A stretch of DNA of 64,000 bases from Bacteroidales bacterium Phil6 (GTDB lineage Bacteria; Bacteroidota; Bacteroidia; Bacteroidales; F082), in NCBI GenBank assembly GCA_002633315.1, contig NWBN01000031.1:1-64000 (forward strand), in the 5' to 3' direction. A program made the position numbers and the translations under genes. Of the stretch, positions 56,414-64,000 are shown piece after piece (the stretch's first letter is position 1; every line of letters begins with the position of its first letter). The notes under the pieces were generated by a model. The model saw only the letters and a list, made by a program, of their open reading frames with translations, was not told where the DNA came from and made no database searches.

Positions 56414-58560
56414 TTATGGATAAAAGTGGTTTATGGCGTGTCTTTCTTATATATTTCGCCTTTTTGCTTTTTGCTCTCTTTGTGATAGGTAAGATAGTGT
56501 ATATTCAGATTTGTGAGAAAGAGGATTTACAGGAATTTATTGAGAAAAATGAACAGAAAAAATTTGTCGTGATGGCGGCAAGAGGTAATGTCTTGTCGAA
56601 AGATGACAGTCCGCTCGCTATTACTATACCTACATACGACATTTTTTTTGATACCCAAGTGGCACAGGATACTTTTAAGTATAAAGGTAAACAGTATATA
56701 CTTGAAAATGAATATAAAAAACTCGCTGACAGCCTTGCTGTCATGATTGGAAAATATGATAGCAGGACATATCTGAGAGAGTTGAAAAAGGCAAAGGCCC
56801 AAAAAAACAGATATTATAAAATTGCCGGTAAACTGACATTGGATGAGTATAGAAGAATATCGAAGTTTCCTCTTTTCGAATTGAATAAATTCAAAGGTGG
56901 TTTTATCGCTGAGAAAAGATATACAAGGGAGTTGCCTTACGGCACTCTTGCCAAGAGGACGATTGGCTATGTAAGAGAAGGTAAAGACAGCATATATGTA
57001 GGTTTAGAAGGTGCTTATAATAAATATCTTACAGGTGTTGACGGAGTGGAATATCGCCGTCGTCTTAACGGTGGTACATTTATTCCTGTGGAATCTTCAT
57101 ATAATATACCGGCTAAGGATGGATGTGATATATGTACGACAATAGATGTCGATGTTCAGGATATTGTGGAAAAATCTCTTGCTCAGTGTCTGGCAGATAA
57201 TAAGGCGGAACAGGGATGCGTGATAATAATGGATGTAAAAACCGGCTATATCGAGGCTATCTCTTCGTTGAAATATGATGAGAAAACAGGTGAATATGAC
57301 GAGAAATATAATTTTGCCATTGCTGAGTTGGTGGAGCCCGGCTCTACTTTTAAGGCGGCTACTATGCTCGCCCTTCTTGAGAATGACCCCAACTTCGATG
57401 TGAATCGTGTAATCAATACCGGCGCAGCCGGAGTTAAATATTTCCATGGTCATGCTTTGAAAGACTCTCATGTCGTCAATAAAGGTAATCCGACAATACG
57501 ACAGGCTTTTGAACATTCGTCCAATATAGCAATGGCACAACTTGTGGAAGAGGCTTTCATCGACAAACCGCAGCGTTTTATTGACTTGCTTTACAAGAGT
57601 TGTATCAACGTGCCATTGAATCTTTCCTTGAAAGGAGGCGGCAAGGCTTATATCAAGACAACAGATAGTCGCAGTTGGAGCAAATTGTCACTGCCTTGGA
57701 TGGCTATGGGTTATGAACTGCAACTGACGCCTCTGCACATTCTCACTTTTTATAATGCCATAGCTAATGACGGCGTCATGATGAAACCTCAATTTGTTAG
57801 AGAGATTCGCGACGGTAAAGATGTCATTGAGACATTCCCGCCTGTTGTGATTAGTGACAGCATTGCTTCTCCCAAGAATATCAGAATAATACAGGAACTG
57901 CTCCGTGGTGTGGTGAAAGAAGGTACTGCCAAGTCGTTGAACGACCTTCCTTTCTCTGTGGCAGGAAAGACCGGTACTGCCCAGATAGCTCAGGGTAAAA
58001 GCGGATATTCCAATAAAAGATATACTGCCACTTTTGTTGGATTCTTTCCTTATGAGAATCCAAAATATTCTTGTATCGTCATGGTAAGTAATCCTAAAGG
58101 TGGTGCGTATTATGGCTCAATGGTGTCAGCTCCTGTGTTTAAAGAAGTTGCTAAAAGAGTCTATGCCAATAAGATACCTAATACTGACAATGTATTTATG
58201 CAGTCTGACCCTGATTGTGAGGTCTATGCAGAGACTTCAATGGCATACCTTGATGATGTTGACAAATATTGCGACTTGATGAATATCGATTTGTATGATA
58301 CCGATATTGGAACGGAATGGGTGAAAGTGAAAAGAAATATCAATGGTTATTATGTGGAACCTGTCAATGTTAACTATTCTTTGGTCCCGGATTTTACCGG
58401 CATGAATGTCACTGATGCTGTGTTCCTTATAGAATCATTGGGTTGGAAAGCACAGTTTGAAGGACATGGCAGAGTGTTGAAACAGTCTGTTGTACCTGAT
58501 GAAGAACTTGAAAAAGGAAAGACGATAAAACTTGTTTTGGGTTATGGGAAAAAGCGTTAA
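56410..58560 (+). CDS. ftsI: Septal penicillin-binding protein (FtsI/PBP3)
   Basis: The 716-residue transpeptidase has one N-terminal helix (FLIYFAFLLFALFVIGKIVYI), a dimerisation domain and a transpeptidase domain. The active-site motifs are EPGSTFKAAT (S-x-x-K), HSSNIA (SxN) and KTGTAQIA. A single C-terminal PASTA-like module starts at LVPDFTGMNVTDAVFLI. It cross-links septal peptidoglycan and works with FtsW. An ATG at 56416 is another possible start. It overlaps murE by 17 bases. Confidence 0.95.
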   Translation: MIMDKSGLWRVFLIYFAFLLFALFVIGKIVYIQICEKEDLQEFIEKNEQKKFVVMAARGNVLSKDDSPLAITIPTYDIFFDTQVAQDTFKYKGKQYILENEYKKLADSLAVMIGKYDSRTYLRELKKAKAQKNRYYKIAGKLTLDEYRRISKFPLFELNKFKGGFIAEKRYTRELPYGTLAKRTIGYVREGKDSIYVGLEGAYNKYLTGVDGVEYRRRLNGGTFIPVESSYNIPAKDGCDICTTIDVDVQDIVEKSLAQCLADNKAEQGCVIIMDVKTGYIEAISSLKYDEKTGEYDEKYNFAIAELVEPGSTFKAATMLALLENDPNFDVNRVINTGAAGVKYFHGHALKDSHVVNKGNPTIRQAFEHSSNIAMAQLVEEAFIDKPQRFIDLLYKSCINVPLNLSLKGGGKAYIKTTDSRSWSKLSLPWMAMGYELQLTPLHILTFYNAIANDGVMMKPQFVREIRDGKDVIETFPPVVISDSIASPKNIRIIQELLRGVVKEGTAKSLNDLPFSVAGKTGTAQIAQGKSGYSNKRYTATFVGFFPYENPKYSCIVMVSNPKGGAYYGSMVSAPVFKEVAKRVYANKIPNTDNVFMQSDPDCEVYAETSMAYLDDVDKYCDLMNIDLYDTDIGTEWVKVKRNINGYYVEPVNVNYSLVPDFTGMNVTDAVFLIESLGWKAQFEGHGRVLKQSVVPDEELEKGKTIKLVLGYGKKR

Positions 58561-60004
58561 AGATATATTTAGAAATTATAAAACAATAAGTATCATAGGC
58601 TCATGCGAGGTTGTGGTCGATTATATTGCTTTCGATTCGAGATGCTGTGCAGCGAAATGTATCTTTTTTGCAGTAAGAGGTACTCAGGTCGATGGACATG
58701 ACTATATAGATAAAGCTATCTGTAATGGAGCTGTCGTCGTGGTGTGTGAGAAACTTCCTGTAGAATGTCGAGATGATGTCGTCTATGTTCTTGTTGATGA
58801 TTGTTCTGTGGCTCTTGGTTTTGCAGCTTCCGAGTTTTATGATAATCCGTCATATAAAATGCATTTGGTGGGTGTTACCGGTACTAATGGCAAGACAACC
58901 ATAGCAACTTTGTTGTACCGTTTGTTTACCGATGCCGGCTATCCATGCGGTTTGTTGTCAACTATTGAGAATCTTATCAATGGCAAAGTCGTGCCTTCTA
59001 CTCATACTACAGGCGACCAGATAGAACTTAATGCCTTGATGAGCAAGATGGTGGATGCAGGTTGCGAATATGTTTTCATGGAGGTGAGCTCTCATGCAGT
59101 GGCGCAAAACCGTATTGCCGGACTACATTTTGAAGGTGGCATATTTACTAATTTGACACACGATCATCTTGATTATCATAAAACGGTGACTGCTTATCGT
59201 GATGCAAAAAAAATGTTTTTCGATAATTTACCGGAAACTGCTTTTGCTCTTACAAATCTTGACGATAAAAACGGTCTCTTCATGTTGCAGAATACCAAAG
59301 CACGTAAGATGTCGTATTCTTTGAAAACAATGGCAGACTTTAAAGGACTTGTGTTGGAGAGTTGTTTCGAAGGAATGCAGATGAAGATAAACGGCAGCTA
59401 TGTGTTTACACGTCTTGTCGGTAATTATAACGCTTCTAACATCCTTGCTATTTATGGTGCTGCTTCTTTGCTTGGCATGGATGATGAAGAGATACTCTTG
59501 GGTATAAGTAAGTTGCATGGCGCTCCGGGACGTTTTCAGGTGGTGCGTTCCGACAGTGGCATAATCGGTATAGTGGATTATGCTCATACTCCTGATGCTT
59601 TGAAAAACATACTTGCAGCAATCAACGAGATACGTACCCATAATGAGATGCTTATCACGGTGGCAGGTGCCGGAGGCAATCGTGATACTACAAAACGCCC
59701 TGAGATGGCTGATGTGGCTGTGAGAAATTGCGATAAACTGATACTTACAAGCGACAACCCCCGTTTTGAGGAACCTGATACCATAATAAATGATATGAAA
59801 AAAGGTGTTGAGACGGCTTTTTGTAAAAAACTGTTGTGTATCACTGACCGCCGTGAGGCCATACGTACTGCCGTGGCTTTGTCGAAAAAAAACGATATTA
59901 TACTCGTGGCAGGGAAAGGTCATGAGAATTATCAGGAAATAAAAGGTGTGAAACATCATTTCGATGATGTGGAAGAATTAAAAAAGGCATTTGAGGAACA
60001 ATGA
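58544..60004 (+). CDS. murE: UDP-MurNAc-Ala-Glu:meso-diaminopimelate ligase
   Basis: The 486-residue Mur ligase has P-loop GVTGTNGKTT, the THTTGDQIEL substrate block and the C-terminal DNPR motif (in LTSDNPRFEEP), which marks meso-DAP rather than lysine as the added amino acid. dapD at 49438 fits. The ATG at 58544 (MGKSVKDIF) is chosen; a TTG four codons earlier is less likely. Length is normal, so this MurE has all three domains, unlike the MurD remnant downstream. Confidence 0.95.
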   Translation: MGKSVKDIFRNYKTISIIGSCEVVVDYIAFDSRCCAAKCIFFAVRGTQVDGHDYIDKAICNGAVVVVCEKLPVECRDDVVYVLVDDCSVALGFAASEFYDNPSYKMHLVGVTGTNGKTTIATLLYRLFTDAGYPCGLLSTIENLINGKVVPSTHTTGDQIELNALMSKMVDAGCEYVFMEVSSHAVAQNRIAGLHFEGGIFTNLTHDHLDYHKTVTAYRDAKKMFFDNLPETAFALTNLDDKNGLFMLQNTKARKMSYSLKTMADFKGLVLESCFEGMQMKINGSYVFTRLVGNYNASNILAIYGAASLLGMDDEEILLGISKLHGAPGRFQVVRSDSGIIGIVDYAHTPDALKNILAAINEIRTHNEMLITVAGAGGNRDTTKRPEMADVAVRNCDKLILTSDNPRFEEPDTIINDMKKGVETAFCKKLLCITDRREAIRTAVALSKKNDIILVAGKGHENYQEIKGVKHHFDDVEELKKAFEEQ

Positions 60005-60019
60005 GTAATATAAGACACT

Positions 60020-61300
60020 ATGTTGTACTATCTGTTTAATTATTTGCAAGATAAATTCGATTTGCCGGGGTCGAGATTGTTTGAATATGTGACTGTCAGA
60101 GCCATGTTGGCGATAATACTGTCATTGATATTGTCGATATGGTTGGGTAAATCCTTTATCAGAATGTTGAAAAAGTACCAGATTAGCGAGGTGCAACGTG
60201 ATGTCAAAATAGACCCGTTTAACGTGAATAAAGTGGGTGTTCCTACTATGGGCGGACTTGTAATAATAACTTCTATTCTTATTCCTTGCCTGTTGGTGGG
60301 TAAAATCTTGAATGTTTATATGATATTGATGATAATTACTACGGTAATACTCGGTTTGACAGGTTTTGCAGATGATTATATCAAGACTTTTAAGAAGAAA
60401 AAAGATGGTTTGAAAGGGTGGTACAAAATCTTTGCTCAGGTGCTGTTGGGTCTCATAGTCGCAATGACATTGCGCTTTAGTCCTGCTGTGGTGATGAATG
60501 AGACAGTGGATGTTAGAATAGAAGATAATAAAGAAGTGGTCGTGAAATCACCGGATGTTAAATCTACACGTACCACAATCCCGTTCTTCAAAAATCACAA
60601 TCTTAATTATTCAGATTTATTCAATTTTATTAAGAGTCCATGGAAATATTGGGTCACTTGGATATTTTTTACCTTAGTGGTGGTATTTGTTGTGACAGCA
60701 GTGTCTAATGGCTCCAACCTCAACGACGGAATGGATGGCATGGCGGCAGGTAACTCTGCAATTATGGGAGTGGCACTTTGTATATTGGCTTATGTGTCGA
60801 GTAATGTCATCATGGCGGATTATCTCAATATCATGTTTATTCCAGGTTCAGAAGAGGTGGTGGTATTTCTATGTGCTTTCGTGGGAGCTTTGATAGGCTT
60901 CTTGTGGTATAACGCTTTCCCGGCACAGATTTTTATGGGTGATACCGGAAGTCTTACGATAGGAGGAATCATCGCCGTGTCGGCAATAATAATTCATAAA
61001 GAATTGTTGCTTCCGATAATTTGCGGCGTCTTCCTCATAGAAAGTCTTTCCGTGATATTGCAGAGACTGTATTTTAAAAAAGGTAAGAGAAAAGGACATC
61101 CACAACGTATATGGAAAAGAACGCCCATACATGACCATTATAGAACAGATCTCAGTTGGGTGGAACAGGTAACTCCGGGCTGTACAGTGCTTTTTAAAGG
61201 TTCAGATGAGAAACTTCATGAAAGCAAGATAACATTGCGCTTCTGGATTATAAGCATCATTTTGGCAGCTTTTGCTATTTTGACATTGAAGATTAGATAA
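60020..61300 (+). CDS. mraY: Phospho-MurNAc-pentapeptide translocase
   Basis: The 426-residue enzyme makes lipid I. About ten membrane helices carry VPTMGGLVII, the GFADDYIK Asp-Asp motif, and SNGSNLNDGMDGMAAG with the catalytic Asp. A hydrophilic insert (about 160-200) makes it longer than the proteobacterial form (360), as in other Bacteroidetes. The MurD remnant follows after 10 bases. Confidence 0.95.
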   Translation: MLYYLFNYLQDKFDLPGSRLFEYVTVRAMLAIILSLILSIWLGKSFIRMLKKYQISEVQRDVKIDPFNVNKVGVPTMGGLVIITSILIPCLLVGKILNVYMILMIITTVILGLTGFADDYIKTFKKKKDGLKGWYKIFAQVLLGLIVAMTLRFSPAVVMNETVDVRIEDNKEVVVKSPDVKSTRTTIPFFKNHNLNYSDLFNFIKSPWKYWVTWIFFTLVVVFVVTAVSNGSNLNDGMDGMAAGNSAIMGVALCILAYVSSNVIMADYLNIMFIPGSEEVVVFLCAFVGALIGFLWYNAFPAQIFMGDTGSLTIGGIIAVSAIIIHKELLLPIICGVFLIESLSVILQRLYFKKGKRKGHPQRIWKRTPIHDHYRTDLSWVEQVTPGCTVLFKGSDEKLHESKITLRFWIISIILAAFAILTLKIR

Positions 61301-61310
61301 ACAAGATATT

Positions 61311-61877
61311 ATGACATTAGAACAATTGGCAAAACAAGGAAAAAGAAACTCGATGACAAGAGCAGCATCTATATCATCGCAGGTGGGGCAGATTAAAAAA
61401 CAAAGTATAAAAGACGCTTTCGTGGATTTGCAACATTGGAGACATAGAAGCGAACTCGTGTATTCTCATAATGCAGTGGATTATATAGACGATTCCGGAG
61501 CTGTCAGCCCGGTGGCGACCTGGTTTACTATGGAGAATATAAACGCTCCTCTGGTTTGGATTACGGGTTGTGGAGAGAAATGTCTTGACTATGAGGATCT
61601 CGTCACTATGGCACACCGTTATGTGAAATATCTTATCTTTGTTGGAGACGATATGACAATAGTTAATGATACTTTTGGCGATGTGCTGAATGATAGAATA
61701 TTACATGCTAAGACACTTGACGAGGCTGTCATAATGGCTTCAGAATTGGCTTCACCCTCAGAAAAGGTACTTTTTTCTCCTTCTACAGATGTCGATGACT
61801 CATTTGTTGATAGCTCTCAACGTGGAGATATGTTTCAGAATATTGTAAGAAACCTTAATATTTTATATGGAAAATGA
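61311..61877 (+). CDS. MurD remnant: C-terminal domain only
   Basis: This uninterrupted 188-codon ORF sits at the murD position between mraY and ftsW. From residue about 13 it follows the last part of MurD: RNSMTRAASIS corresponds to the NxxN-x-AA helix, then HRSELV (HRLE in MurD), INAPLVWITGCGEK (the GGxxKG loop region), and KVLFSPSTDVDDSF followed by RGDMFQNIVRNL (the LLSPACASFD...RGxxF end). The N-terminal UDP-binding and central ATPase domains (about 270 residues) are absent, and the DSKATN motif reads DSGAV, losing the Lys. It cannot be a ligase. It overlaps ftsW by 4 bases, so it may persist as a structural or coupling element. Confidence 0.8.
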   Translation: MTLEQLAKQGKRNSMTRAASISSQVGQIKKQSIKDAFVDLQHWRHRSELVYSHNAVDYIDDSGAVSPVATWFTMENINAPLVWITGCGEKCLDYEDLVTMAHRYVKYLIFVGDDMTIVNDTFGDVLNDRILHAKTLDEAVIMASELASPSEKVLFSPSTDVDDSFVDSSQRGDMFQNIVRNLNILYGK

Positions 61878-63043
61878 GACTCTTTGACAGGATATTCCAA
61901 GGCGATAGAGGTATCTGGATGGTTGCATGGATATTGGCACTGATATCCTTGTTGTGCGTCTATAGTGCAACAAGTGTAGTCGCTATTAAAGATTACGGAG
62001 GTAATAATACTTTCGTTCTCATGAAACATGCTGTATTTGTTGTCGCCGCTCTTGTCCTTATGTTTGGAGCCTCTCGTGTGAAATATACATATTATTCTAA
62101 TATCTTCAATCTGCTGTTTTTTGTTGCCATTGTCTTGTTGATACTTACTCAACTGTTTGGTACGGAAAGCGATGATGCAAGAAGGTCATTGTCAATATCA
62201 AAAATATTACCCTTCATAGGTCCTAATGCTTCGTTTATGCCAAATGAGTTTGTCAAAATAATTCTTATTGGATTTATTGCCAGAAAAATAGCGTTGAGAA
62301 AAGATAATCCTGACCCTGGCTGGAAGGATATTTGTCTTAATATTATGCTTCCGGTGATATTTGTGGTAGGCCTGATAGCAACGGAGAATCTTTCTACAGC
62401 TGTGCTGCTTTTTGCTACATGTATTGCCATGATGTTTGTTGGAAAGATAAAGATGAAGTATATTTTGTCTTTCGTCGGAATTGCCGTATTATTCCTTGCA
62501 TTGTTTATATGTATAAAGTTTATGACAGGTAGTAGCGGTCGTCAGACGACATGGAAAGCCCGTATTACAAATACGGATAATTATCAAAAGGATTATGCTA
62601 AGGCGGCTATCGCTACCGGTGGCATTTTTGGTAAACTGCCCGGCAAGAGTACAGAACGTAACTCCCTCCCTAAAGTGGAAAACGACTGTATCTATGCTAT
62701 AGTTGTCGAAGAATATGGACTTGTAGGTGGTGTAATTGTGCTGTCTTTGTATCTTATCTTGTTGTATCGTGTGGTAATGATAATGGTGAAACGTCCTGAT
62801 TCTTTCGGTGCTATTTTGTCATTTGGTCTGATATTGTGTATTGTCATGCAGGCTTTTATCAATATGGGCGTCTCAGTGGGATTGTTGCCTACGACAGGAC
62901 AAAATCTGCCTTTCGTGAGTAGAGGCGGTACTTCTATGATATGTACGGGTATATCCTTTGGAATAATATTGAGTGTGACAAGAGATATAAATAAAAACGA
63001 TGAAAAGAGAAAAGAACTCGAACAGGTACAGGCTGCTGATTAG
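61874..63043 (+). CDS. ftsW: Septal peptidoglycan polymerase FtsW
   Basis: The 389-residue SEDS protein has about ten membrane helices. Family marks are LLCVYSATSV near the first helix, PNEFVKIILIGFIA, ENLSTAVLLFATC, and the C-terminal GLLPTTGQNLPFVSRGGTS block. It polymerises glycan strands with FtsI at the septum. It overlaps the MurD remnant by 4 bases and murG by 44 bases. Confidence 0.95.
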   Translation: MRLFDRIFQGDRGIWMVAWILALISLLCVYSATSVVAIKDYGGNNTFVLMKHAVFVVAALVLMFGASRVKYTYYSNIFNLLFFVAIVLLILTQLFGTESDDARRSLSISKILPFIGPNASFMPNEFVKIILIGFIARKIALRKDNPDPGWKDICLNIMLPVIFVVGLIATENLSTAVLLFATCIAMMFVGKIKMKYILSFVGIAVLFLALFICIKFMTGSSGRQTTWKARITNTDNYQKDYAKAAIATGGIFGKLPGKSTERNSLPKVENDCIYAIVVEEYGLVGGVIVLSLYLILLYRVVMIMVKRPDSFGAILSFGLILCIVMQAFINMGVSVGLLPTTGQNLPFVSRGGTSMICTGISFGIILSVTRDINKNDEKRKELEQVQAAD

Positions 63044-64000
63044 CGGTGGTGGTACGGGAGGTCATATCTTTCCGGCCATTGCCATTGCAGATGCCTTTAA
63101 AAAACGCCATCCTGATGCGGAAATAATGTTTATTGGAGCAAAAGGCAGGATGGAGATGGATATGGTGCCTAAGGCAGGTTATCCTATTGAAGGCCTGTGG
63201 ATTAGCGGATTTAAAAGAAGTCTTTCTCTCGATAATCTTTTGTTCCCGTTGAAGTTGTTGTGCAGCCTGGTGAAAGCCGGAAAGATTATTCGTCGTTTTA
63301 ATCCGGATTTAGTCGTCGGGGTTGGCGGTTTTGCCAGTGGTCCAACAATGCGCCGCGCCGCTTCCATGAAAATACCTGTCATCATACAGGAACAGAATTC
63401 TTTTCCGGGTGTTACCAATAGAATGATGGCAAACAAGGCATCACGAATCTGCGTGGCTTATGATGCAATGGATAAGTGGTTTCCGGCAGAAAAAATTGTA
63501 TTGACCGGTAATCCGTTGAGAAACAATATAATGAATGTTAATGTTGACAGAGCGGAATCTGCTGCGTTTTTCAATCTTAACCCTGAAAAACCTGTGATAT
63601 TGTTGGTGGGAGGCAGTCAGGGTGCCTTGGGTATCAATAGAGGTGTTTTTGCTGCTTTGTCTTCATTCAAAGATAATGATGTGCAGTTGATATGGCAGAC
63701 GGGCAAACCTTATTTTGAGAAAGCATCTCAGGCAGTGGATGAAATGAACCTGTCGCATAAGATAAAATGTGTTGTGTTTATTGATAGAATGGATATGGCA
63801 TATTCTCTTGCTGATGTTGTGATATCAAGAGCAGGAGCTATCTCTATATCTGAACTTTCACTCATGCGCAAAACTGTCGTATTCGTGCCTTTGCCGACAG
63901 CGGCTGAAGACCATCAGACGAAAAATGCCCGCCGCCTCGTTGATGCCGACGCTGCTTTGCTCGTGCCTAATGATGCTACTGAGCAACAATTGATACCAAC
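63000..64000 (+). CDS. murG: UDP-GlcNAc:lipid I N-acetylglucosaminyltransferase, partial
   Basis: The gene runs off the right edge; 333 codons are visible. MurG turns lipid I into lipid II. The N-terminal loop SGGGTGGHIFPAIA lies at residues 15-28, with VGVGGFASGP and the C-terminal-domain ILLVGGSQGALGIN and SRAGAISISEL (UDP-GlcNAc binding) further on. The likely start is the ATG at 63000, which overlaps the ftsW end. No stop or damage appears before the window end. Confidence 0.94.
   Translation, partial: MKREKNSNRYRLLISGGGTGGHIFPAIAIADAFKKRHPDAEIMFIGAKGRMEMDMVPKAGYPIEGLWISGFKRSLSLDNLLFPLKLLCSLVKAGKIIRRFNPDLVVGVGGFASGPTMRRAASMKIPVIIQEQNSFPGVTNRMMANKASRICVAYDAMDKWFPAEKIVLTGNPLRNNIMNVNVDRAESAAFFNLNPEKPVILLVGGSQGALGINRGVFAALSSFKDNDVQLIWQTGKPYFEKASQAVDEMNLSHKIKCVVFIDRMDMAYSLADVVISRAGAISISELSLMRKTVVFVPLPTAAEDHQTKNARRLVDADAALLVPNDATEQQLIP

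Follow-up and report, generated by a model that had tools for sequence, protein, structure and literature searches.

A close described counterpart of the locus reported here is the MurD2/MurL pathway of Xanthomonas oryzae. In the available text of PMC8788868, MurD2 of X. oryzae is turned to D-Glu by exchange of the residues at positions D182 and K348, E. coli MurD accepts L-Glu after a change at K319, and K348 and the 414–416 loop lie near D-Glu in MurD. The distribution of the pathway described there comprises Gamma- and Alphaproteobacteria and rare Actinobacteria; Bacteroidota are not named in that text. A second related system is that of the Mur-ligase/MurG scaffolds. MurD, MurE and MurF of T. 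maritima are reported to bind MurG, the domain responsible not being given in the available text (PMC6420597). This binding is a precedent for docking of MurD, but it concerns whole enzymes, and neither a free domain nor an FtsW partner appears in the same text.

Bacteroidales bacterium Phil6 shares with X. oryzae a MurD with E, R and I at literature positions 182, 348 and 319, respectively, an adjacent MurL-like gene and a genome in which MurI was not found. It differs in that its order is absent from the list available in PMC8788868, that the MurL-like gene scores under the family cut-off, and that the murD of its dcw cluster is a free C-terminal domain, for which the available text of that paper has no mention. 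We put at about 0.9 the probability that this gene, hereafter referred to as murD-C, encodes a stand-alone domain that is under selection, is not a ligase and occurs in a genome of the MurD2/MurL type. The first-pass annotation of the DNA had known of no described case like it. For the literature searched (titles and beginnings of abstracts) this holds, since no description of a free MurD C-domain was found, but murD-C is not an isolated oddity: free MurD C-domains recur across many Bacteroidia families.

The free murD-C gene of the dcw cluster

Features of the window, i.e. the whole stretch of 64,000 nucleotides that was analysed, are collected in Table 1. The murD-C reading frame starts with ATG and contains no internal stops.

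Table 1. murD-C, its parts and its neighbours in the window
Feature	Coordinates	Strand	Basis
murE, dcw context	58532..60004	+	ORF, Pfam, NCBIfam
mraY, upstream neighbour, 10 bp gap to murD-C	60020..61300	+	ORF, Pfam, NCBIfam
murD-C, free-standing MurD C-terminal-domain gene, 188 aa	61311..61877	+	ORF, Pfam, NCBIfam, AlphaFold2, Foldseek, same-genus loci
Start segment MTLEQLAKQGKR of murD-C	61311..61346	+	aligns with internal stretch MTLEELALQGKHN of full-length MurD, related families
Mur_ligase_C domain, residues 45–158 of murD-C	61443..61784	+	Pfam
Degenerate DSKATN motif, DSGAV, residues 61–65 of murD-C	61491..61505	+	sequence and alignment
ftsW, next gene downstream, sharing 4 bases with murD-C; free MurD-C genes are usually followed by it	61874..63043	+	ORF, Pfam, NCBIfam, gene order
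murG, runs off the window, dcw context	63000..63998	+	ORF, Pfam, NCBIfam

Against the NCBIfam murD model TIGR01087 the product matched profile positions 279–440 of 441 only, with 84.4 bits (E 8.4e-24), far under the curated cut-off of 211.95 bits for the MurD ligase family. Positions 1–278 of the profile have no match, i.e. the UDP-MurNAc-Ala-binding and ATP-binding domains are absent; the Pfam search returned Mur_ligase_C only, and Mur_ligase_M was not found. The first-pass annotation had aligned the frame to the last part of MurD, with both substrate-binding domains gone and DSKATN turned into DSGAV. It was right on the missing domains and on the motif, and its assignment to the C-terminal domain agrees with TIGR01087 and Pfam but is incomplete, as the product also holds the last helical part of the MurD middle domain (approximately residues 10–40). 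In the literature numbering, which is one less than that of the gene, murD-C retains H301, R302, D317, K348 (the residue near D-Glu), P411, R425, G426 and F429 and is devoid of K319, T321 and S415, the last being replaced by V.

The AlphaFold2 model of murD-C has a mean pLDDT of 80; residues 1–21 are below 50, and the model is confident from approximately residue 41. Both the model and Foldseek analysis indicated the C-terminal domain fold of MurD; the best-described match, at 1.4 Å over ~141 columns, is to this domain in MurD of P. aeruginosa. Fold and sequence of this domain, together with the position between mraY and ftsW, are what murD-C has in common with the MurD ligase. Weak fold matches (TM-score ~0.5) were also obtained with plastid RNA polymerase chains 8ras_Q, 8r6s_Q and 8qma_O, which, unlike murD-C, are MurE-like and plastid; we take them to be structural subunits (PAP11).

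The free MurD C-domain gene in the window is confirmed as a real, selected protein. All 26 same-genus loci that were inspected, among them that of the window, have a free C-domain ORF with ftsW behind it; they are the genus loci within the best 30 matches of the homology search. The ORFs are 176–215 aa long, with one frame (L058) open upstream to 326 aa. Of 36 genus genomes, 33 contain the ORF, and the three without it are 62–72% complete. The closest named records are from uncultured Bacteroidales, chiefly of ruminant and horse guts; the 80 named loci retrieved via MraY comprised 23 with a free ORF, 53 with a long murD and 4 unclassed. Pairs of free ORFs were filtered for shared words, which left 43 of the 276 possible pairs for alignment. 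For the 25 closest of these dN was 0–0.19, dS 0.04–2.2 and dN/dS 0–0.21, and in 23 of these 25 pairs dN of the free ORF exceeded that of mraY and that of ftsW. The free ORF is under purifying selection as a protein, somewhat weaker than that acting on its neighbours. These values support the earlier suggestion of selection for something other than ligase activity; purifying selection was seen in place of the neutral decay in close relatives that would have spoken against it.

As a neutral remnant, or as a product of a sequencing or assembly error, the ORF would be expected to lack parts of MurD, and it does lack two domains; besides, 23 of the 42 genomes of the order that have a MurL-like gene still possess a long frame of murD (see below). 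However, only 10 bp separate mraY from the murD-C ATG, and the missing two thirds of MurD therefore cannot fit there. Since the genome also has a complete MurD on another contig, the ORF is not an error, and a frameshift or assembly split of murD is ruled out by the same two observations and by conservation in relatives. With the free ORF in every one of the genus loci and purifying selection acting on it, we consider this explanation as having next to no probability.

Residues of the ligase were compared in nine free ORFs of the genus and 15 others. T321 is kept in 0/9 and 10/15, K319 in 2/9 and 11/15, K348 in 4/9 and 4/15 (8/24 in total), and S415 in 5/9 and 11/15, whereas D317 is kept in 9/9 and 15/15 and P411 in 9/9 and 14/15. 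In these alignments, positions important for the ligase are relaxed and others are retained.

MurD2/MurL-type genes in Phil6 and in other Bacteroidales

The genome to which the window belongs (34 contigs totalling 2.59 Mb, completeness given as 100%) contains one full-length MurD above the family cut-off. It is located on contig C7 (L009:9754-11028) and scored 294.5 bits against TIGR01087. A gene adjoining it upstream with an overlap of 26 bp (L009:11003-12373) matched the MurL model NF041275 over residues 11–412 with 248.7 bits (E 8e-74). Because this is below the cut-off of 700 bits, set for a Xanthomonadales model, we refer to the gene as MurL-like and not as MurL. The C7 ligase has E, R and I at positions 182, 348 and 319, which bear on the choice of L-Glu. 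The same three replacements of D182, K348 and K319 were found in 41/41 MurD2 loci, corresponding to 39 distinct genes (two are represented twice), 31 of the genus and 8 from other families, the window's genome included. MurI was not found in 36/36 same-genus genomes, Phil6 among them, several of which are incomplete. Of the two possibilities named in the first-pass annotation, a complete murD elsewhere or takeover by another Mur ligase, the former was borne out; the full-length copy is of the MurD2 type and lies beside a MurL-like gene. A pathway of the MurD2/MurL type is probably what now incorporates D-Glu in Phil6.

Five of the 36 genus genomes (G019, G021, G024, G028 and G031) have MurL-like and MurD2 matches in frames of equal length, 901–996 aa. 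One frame of 885–996 aa for both proteins was noted at L026 and L039 and in G019, G024, G028, G138 and G165, the same frame being confirmed in two. Such a single frame is likely a fusion of the two enzymes.

A sample of 119 Bacteroidales genomes representing 118 families was searched for the C-domain, MurL and MurI. MurL-like genes were present in 42 genomes, in a phylum that the list available in PMC8788868 does not include, and MurI in 72; no genome had both and 5 had neither. This genomic pattern suggests that the MurL-like gene takes the place of glutamate racemase, and that a MurD2/MurL-type route extends over much of the Bacteroidales, among them gut bacteria.

In the 42 MurL-like genomes the dcw C-domain is free in 17 (16 families) and part of a longer frame in 23, two of which (G154, G165) run into a contig end. 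In the other two, G079 and G136, it was not among the matches listed, and G136 has one weak match beyond these; the dcw C-domain is therefore not always kept in MurL-like Bacteroidales. Of the 72 MurI genomes, 71 had a C-domain match and none was listed with a free ORF. One of them, G065, has a 111-aa end fragment next to a copy cut at its end, which is probably one murD split over contigs. The difference in occurrence of the free ORF, 17/42 versus 0/72, corresponds to a Fisher p of 3e-9 with kinship ignored. The free ORFs of the order are 176–190 aa long, eight of them exactly 182 aa.

Several single genomes were noted in the course of this survey. In G074 (L112/L160), which is 98% complete, a free MurD C-domain was present and MurI, MurL-like and full-length MurD were not found. 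G023 is an exception among the genomes with a free ORF in that full-length MurD and MurL-like were not found in it; in G113 full-length MurD was not found, and the MurL-like gene has one stop. The dcw murD of G071 (L108), one of the 23 longer frames of MurL-like genomes, is near a contig end; its first part is devoid of a start codon, and after a stop the frame opens on MurD-like sequence.

In long dcw murD copies of MurL-like genomes K115, N138 and E157 are kept in 21/21 readable rows and D182, H183, K198, K319, T321, K348 and S415 in 23/23; N271 is replaced by D in two copies. Since nearly all checked ligase residues are kept, these copies (L110, L167-L185) look active although MurI was not found.

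Recurrence and origin of free MurD C-domains

The search was extended, with the same query, to 129 genomes of the class Bacteroidia. The loci of 37 of them were analysed, namely 31 in which an additional or free copy was indicated and, as controls, 6 with a single match; 7 more two-match genomes were left out. In 29 genomes a long murD is followed by a free C-domain ORF (hereafter, tandem), so that in other orders of the class the free C-domain gene is flanked by an intact murD on one side and ftsW on the other. In G217 and G225 the free copy is not part of a tandem, and a free copy is absent in 6/6 controls. The 33 free copies of the class set keep K348 in 5 cases, H301 in 30, D317 in 28, P411 in 33, G426 in 32 and F429 in 31. 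A stand-alone C-domain ORF immediately 5' of ftsW is the trait by which Bacteroidia MurD-C genes are grouped here, and murD-C of the window has it.

On a tree of MraY, FtsW, MurG and MurE (92 rows, with 40 of the 72 MurI genomes included) the pathway label changes 3 times and the free/full label 12 times. With rpoB alone the corresponding numbers are 3 and 11, and with rpoB and dcw genes together 3 and 13 (58 rows). A C-domain-only tree gave 6 free/full changes and is weak, 5/90 inner branches being starred. In the AU test, one clade of free ORFs was not rejected by the dcw genes alone (p 0.312), which are compatible with one origin, and was rejected by rpoB together with dcw genes (p 0.0007). 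We therefore favour several truncations and give no number for them.

Most of the free ORFs begin near the same place. In 20/25 rows the start positions differ by no more than two columns of the alignment and coincide with a Met inside full-length MurD, and many of these ORFs have a similar peptide after that Met. The MTLEELALQG-like start of many free ORFs, including that of the window, matches inside full-length MurD and matches none of the 33 class-set copies. For 9 of the 15 non-genus free ORFs (G064, G091, G098, G108, G117, G120, G132, G153 and G159) a profile of full-length copies from MurL genomes beats the tandem profile by 16–57 bits, and truncation is well supported for them. In the most diverged ORFs (G000, G011, G017, G060, G113 and G138) the tandem profile scores 8–14 bits higher than the full-length Bacteroidales profile. 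The window murD-C, itself among the most diverged, gave 119.4 bits with the tandem profile versus 108.8 bits with the full-length one, and since the former is slightly better, the argument for truncation there comes from the start peptide.

These scores bear on a different history, though not on function, of the free domain, namely that it descends from a free copy behind murD, the full-length gene having been deleted, and is not a truncated murD. Such tandems exist in the class set, the most diverged ORFs lean to the tandem profile, and one clade of free ORFs is tolerated by dcw genes alone. However, both genes were seen together in none of the order genomes, nine ORFs prefer the full-length profile, even if part of this may be kinship, as the tandem rows are from other orders, and the start peptide points to the inside of full-length MurD. 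We consider descent from a tandem copy unlikely and favour truncation.

The internal ATG at which free ORFs start is kept in long dcw murD of 23/23 MurL-like and 37/41 MurI genomes. In comparisons whose statistics ignore kinship, the residue after this Met is Thr in 18/23 MurL-like versus 4/37 MurI genomes, the upstream excess of A over the gene mean is 0.147 versus 0.049 (p 0.006), and position −13 differs (p 0.003). Against internal initiation, no difference was observed for A at −3 (16/23 versus 22/37, p 0.58), which is the translation start signal stressed in the available text of PMC6847099, or for positions −6 and −12 (p 0.47 and 0.37, respectively), and the internal Met is old in the class (34/36 long rows). 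We conjecture that translation may also be initiated internally within full-length murD.

Possible roles of MurD-C beside ftsW

Free MurD-C genes are located immediately 5' of ftsW in 25/25 rows of the order set and in 29/33 copies of the class set; of the remaining four copies, one borders a contig end and three are solitary. The dcw cluster of G217 is split, with murE-mraY-murD on one contig and MurD-C-ftsW on another. This synteny ties the domain to ftsW. A function other than that of a ligase, connected with FtsW, is probable for the C-domain, and the scaffold role at FtsW/MurG/MraY that the first-pass annotation had brought up is plausible; the adjacency to ftsW may also reflect only the old position of murD.

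Our proposed explanation is as follows. With UDP-MurNAc-Ala-D-Glu coming from a MurD2/MurL-type pair, the ligase activity of an ancestral full-length dcw murD would have become dispensable. The first two MurD domains would then have been lost, with translation beginning at an ATG already present inside murD, and the C-domain would have been spared because it does a second job. The likeliest such job would be that of a protein-protein adaptor. MurD-C would bind FtsW, or a complex that FtsW forms with MurG and MraY, and so contribute to keeping cytoplasmic precursor enzymes at the membrane. Several of the observations above weigh against this explanation: a long dcw murD frame exists in 23 of the 42 MurL-like genomes and no dcw C-domain was listed in two, four class-set copies are without ftsW behind them, dN of the free ORF mostly exceeds that of its neighbours, K348 is kept in the window, and the MurL-like gene scores under the family cut-off. 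Taken as a whole, with the adaptor step, this chain falls a little short of an even chance. In a broader version, offered tentatively and with the odds against it, MurD would have a second, non-ligase C-domain job tied to FtsW, and Bacteroidia would supply the free domain in up to three ways: by a tandem copy, by truncation after takeover by MurD2/MurL and, perhaps, by an internal start.

The constant position before ftsW and the 4-base overlap in the window could be expected, too, if the stretch were kept in cis, as an RNA, a promoter or a coupling element for ftsW, with the protein as a by-product. This is very improbable, as dN is far below dS, amino acids and fold are conserved, and the distance between the ORF and ftsW is anywhere between −23 and +79 among rows of the order set. 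Even in nine rows of the genus it ranges from −23 to +11. Since the overlap with ftsW is not conserved within the genus, translational coupling, the other role brought up for the overlap, fits poorly and was rejected as the main reason for murD-C.

Much of the D-Glu site of MurD is carried by its C-terminal domain. A sensor or regulator that binds UDP-MurNAc-peptide or glutamate and tunes MurE, MurF, MurD2 or the MurL-like protein could therefore be envisaged. The window ORF keeps K348, which leaves room for such a role and for a possible remnant of substrate binding, and S415 is kept in many free ORFs (see above); K348 and the 414–416 loop are the elements placed near D-Glu in the available text of PMC8788868. 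On the other hand, there is no UDP-binding domain, K319, T321 and S415 are all replaced in the window ORF, and no more than 8/24 free ORFs from MurL-type lineages have K348 and 10/24 T321, with K348 present in 5/33 copies of the class set. We regard a sensor as improbable, although it is the main rival of the adaptor.

A role of MurD-C as a dedicated subunit of MurD2 or MurL was also considered. Exactly two matches, murD and MurD-C, were obtained in 25/29 tandem carriers, which therefore had no MurD2 hit, whereas the same query gave a second match in 37/40 MurL-like order genomes with a dcw match. This makes the subunit role unlikely.

The old question of what keeps the cytoplasmic Mur enzymes at the division machinery becomes testable with one small protein. 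The C-domain often stays alone in lineages in which another enzyme seems to have taken over the ligase step, and where the ligase stays, some orders add a free C-domain; the pattern points to a function of MurD that is not visible in enzyme assays. In this sense murD-C is a natural experiment in which an essential enzyme and antibiotic target is split into catalytic and non-catalytic parts.

Two further observations concern gene order. In G015 (L046) murE is immediately 5' of the free ORF and mraY is displaced, MurD-C and ftsW being still together. The three solitary free MurD C-domains (L385:1695-2333, L405:2102-2644 and L406:1733-2395) are diverged and lie outside the dcw cluster; at two of these three loci the next gene, as judged by eye, resembles aldehyde dehydrogenase.
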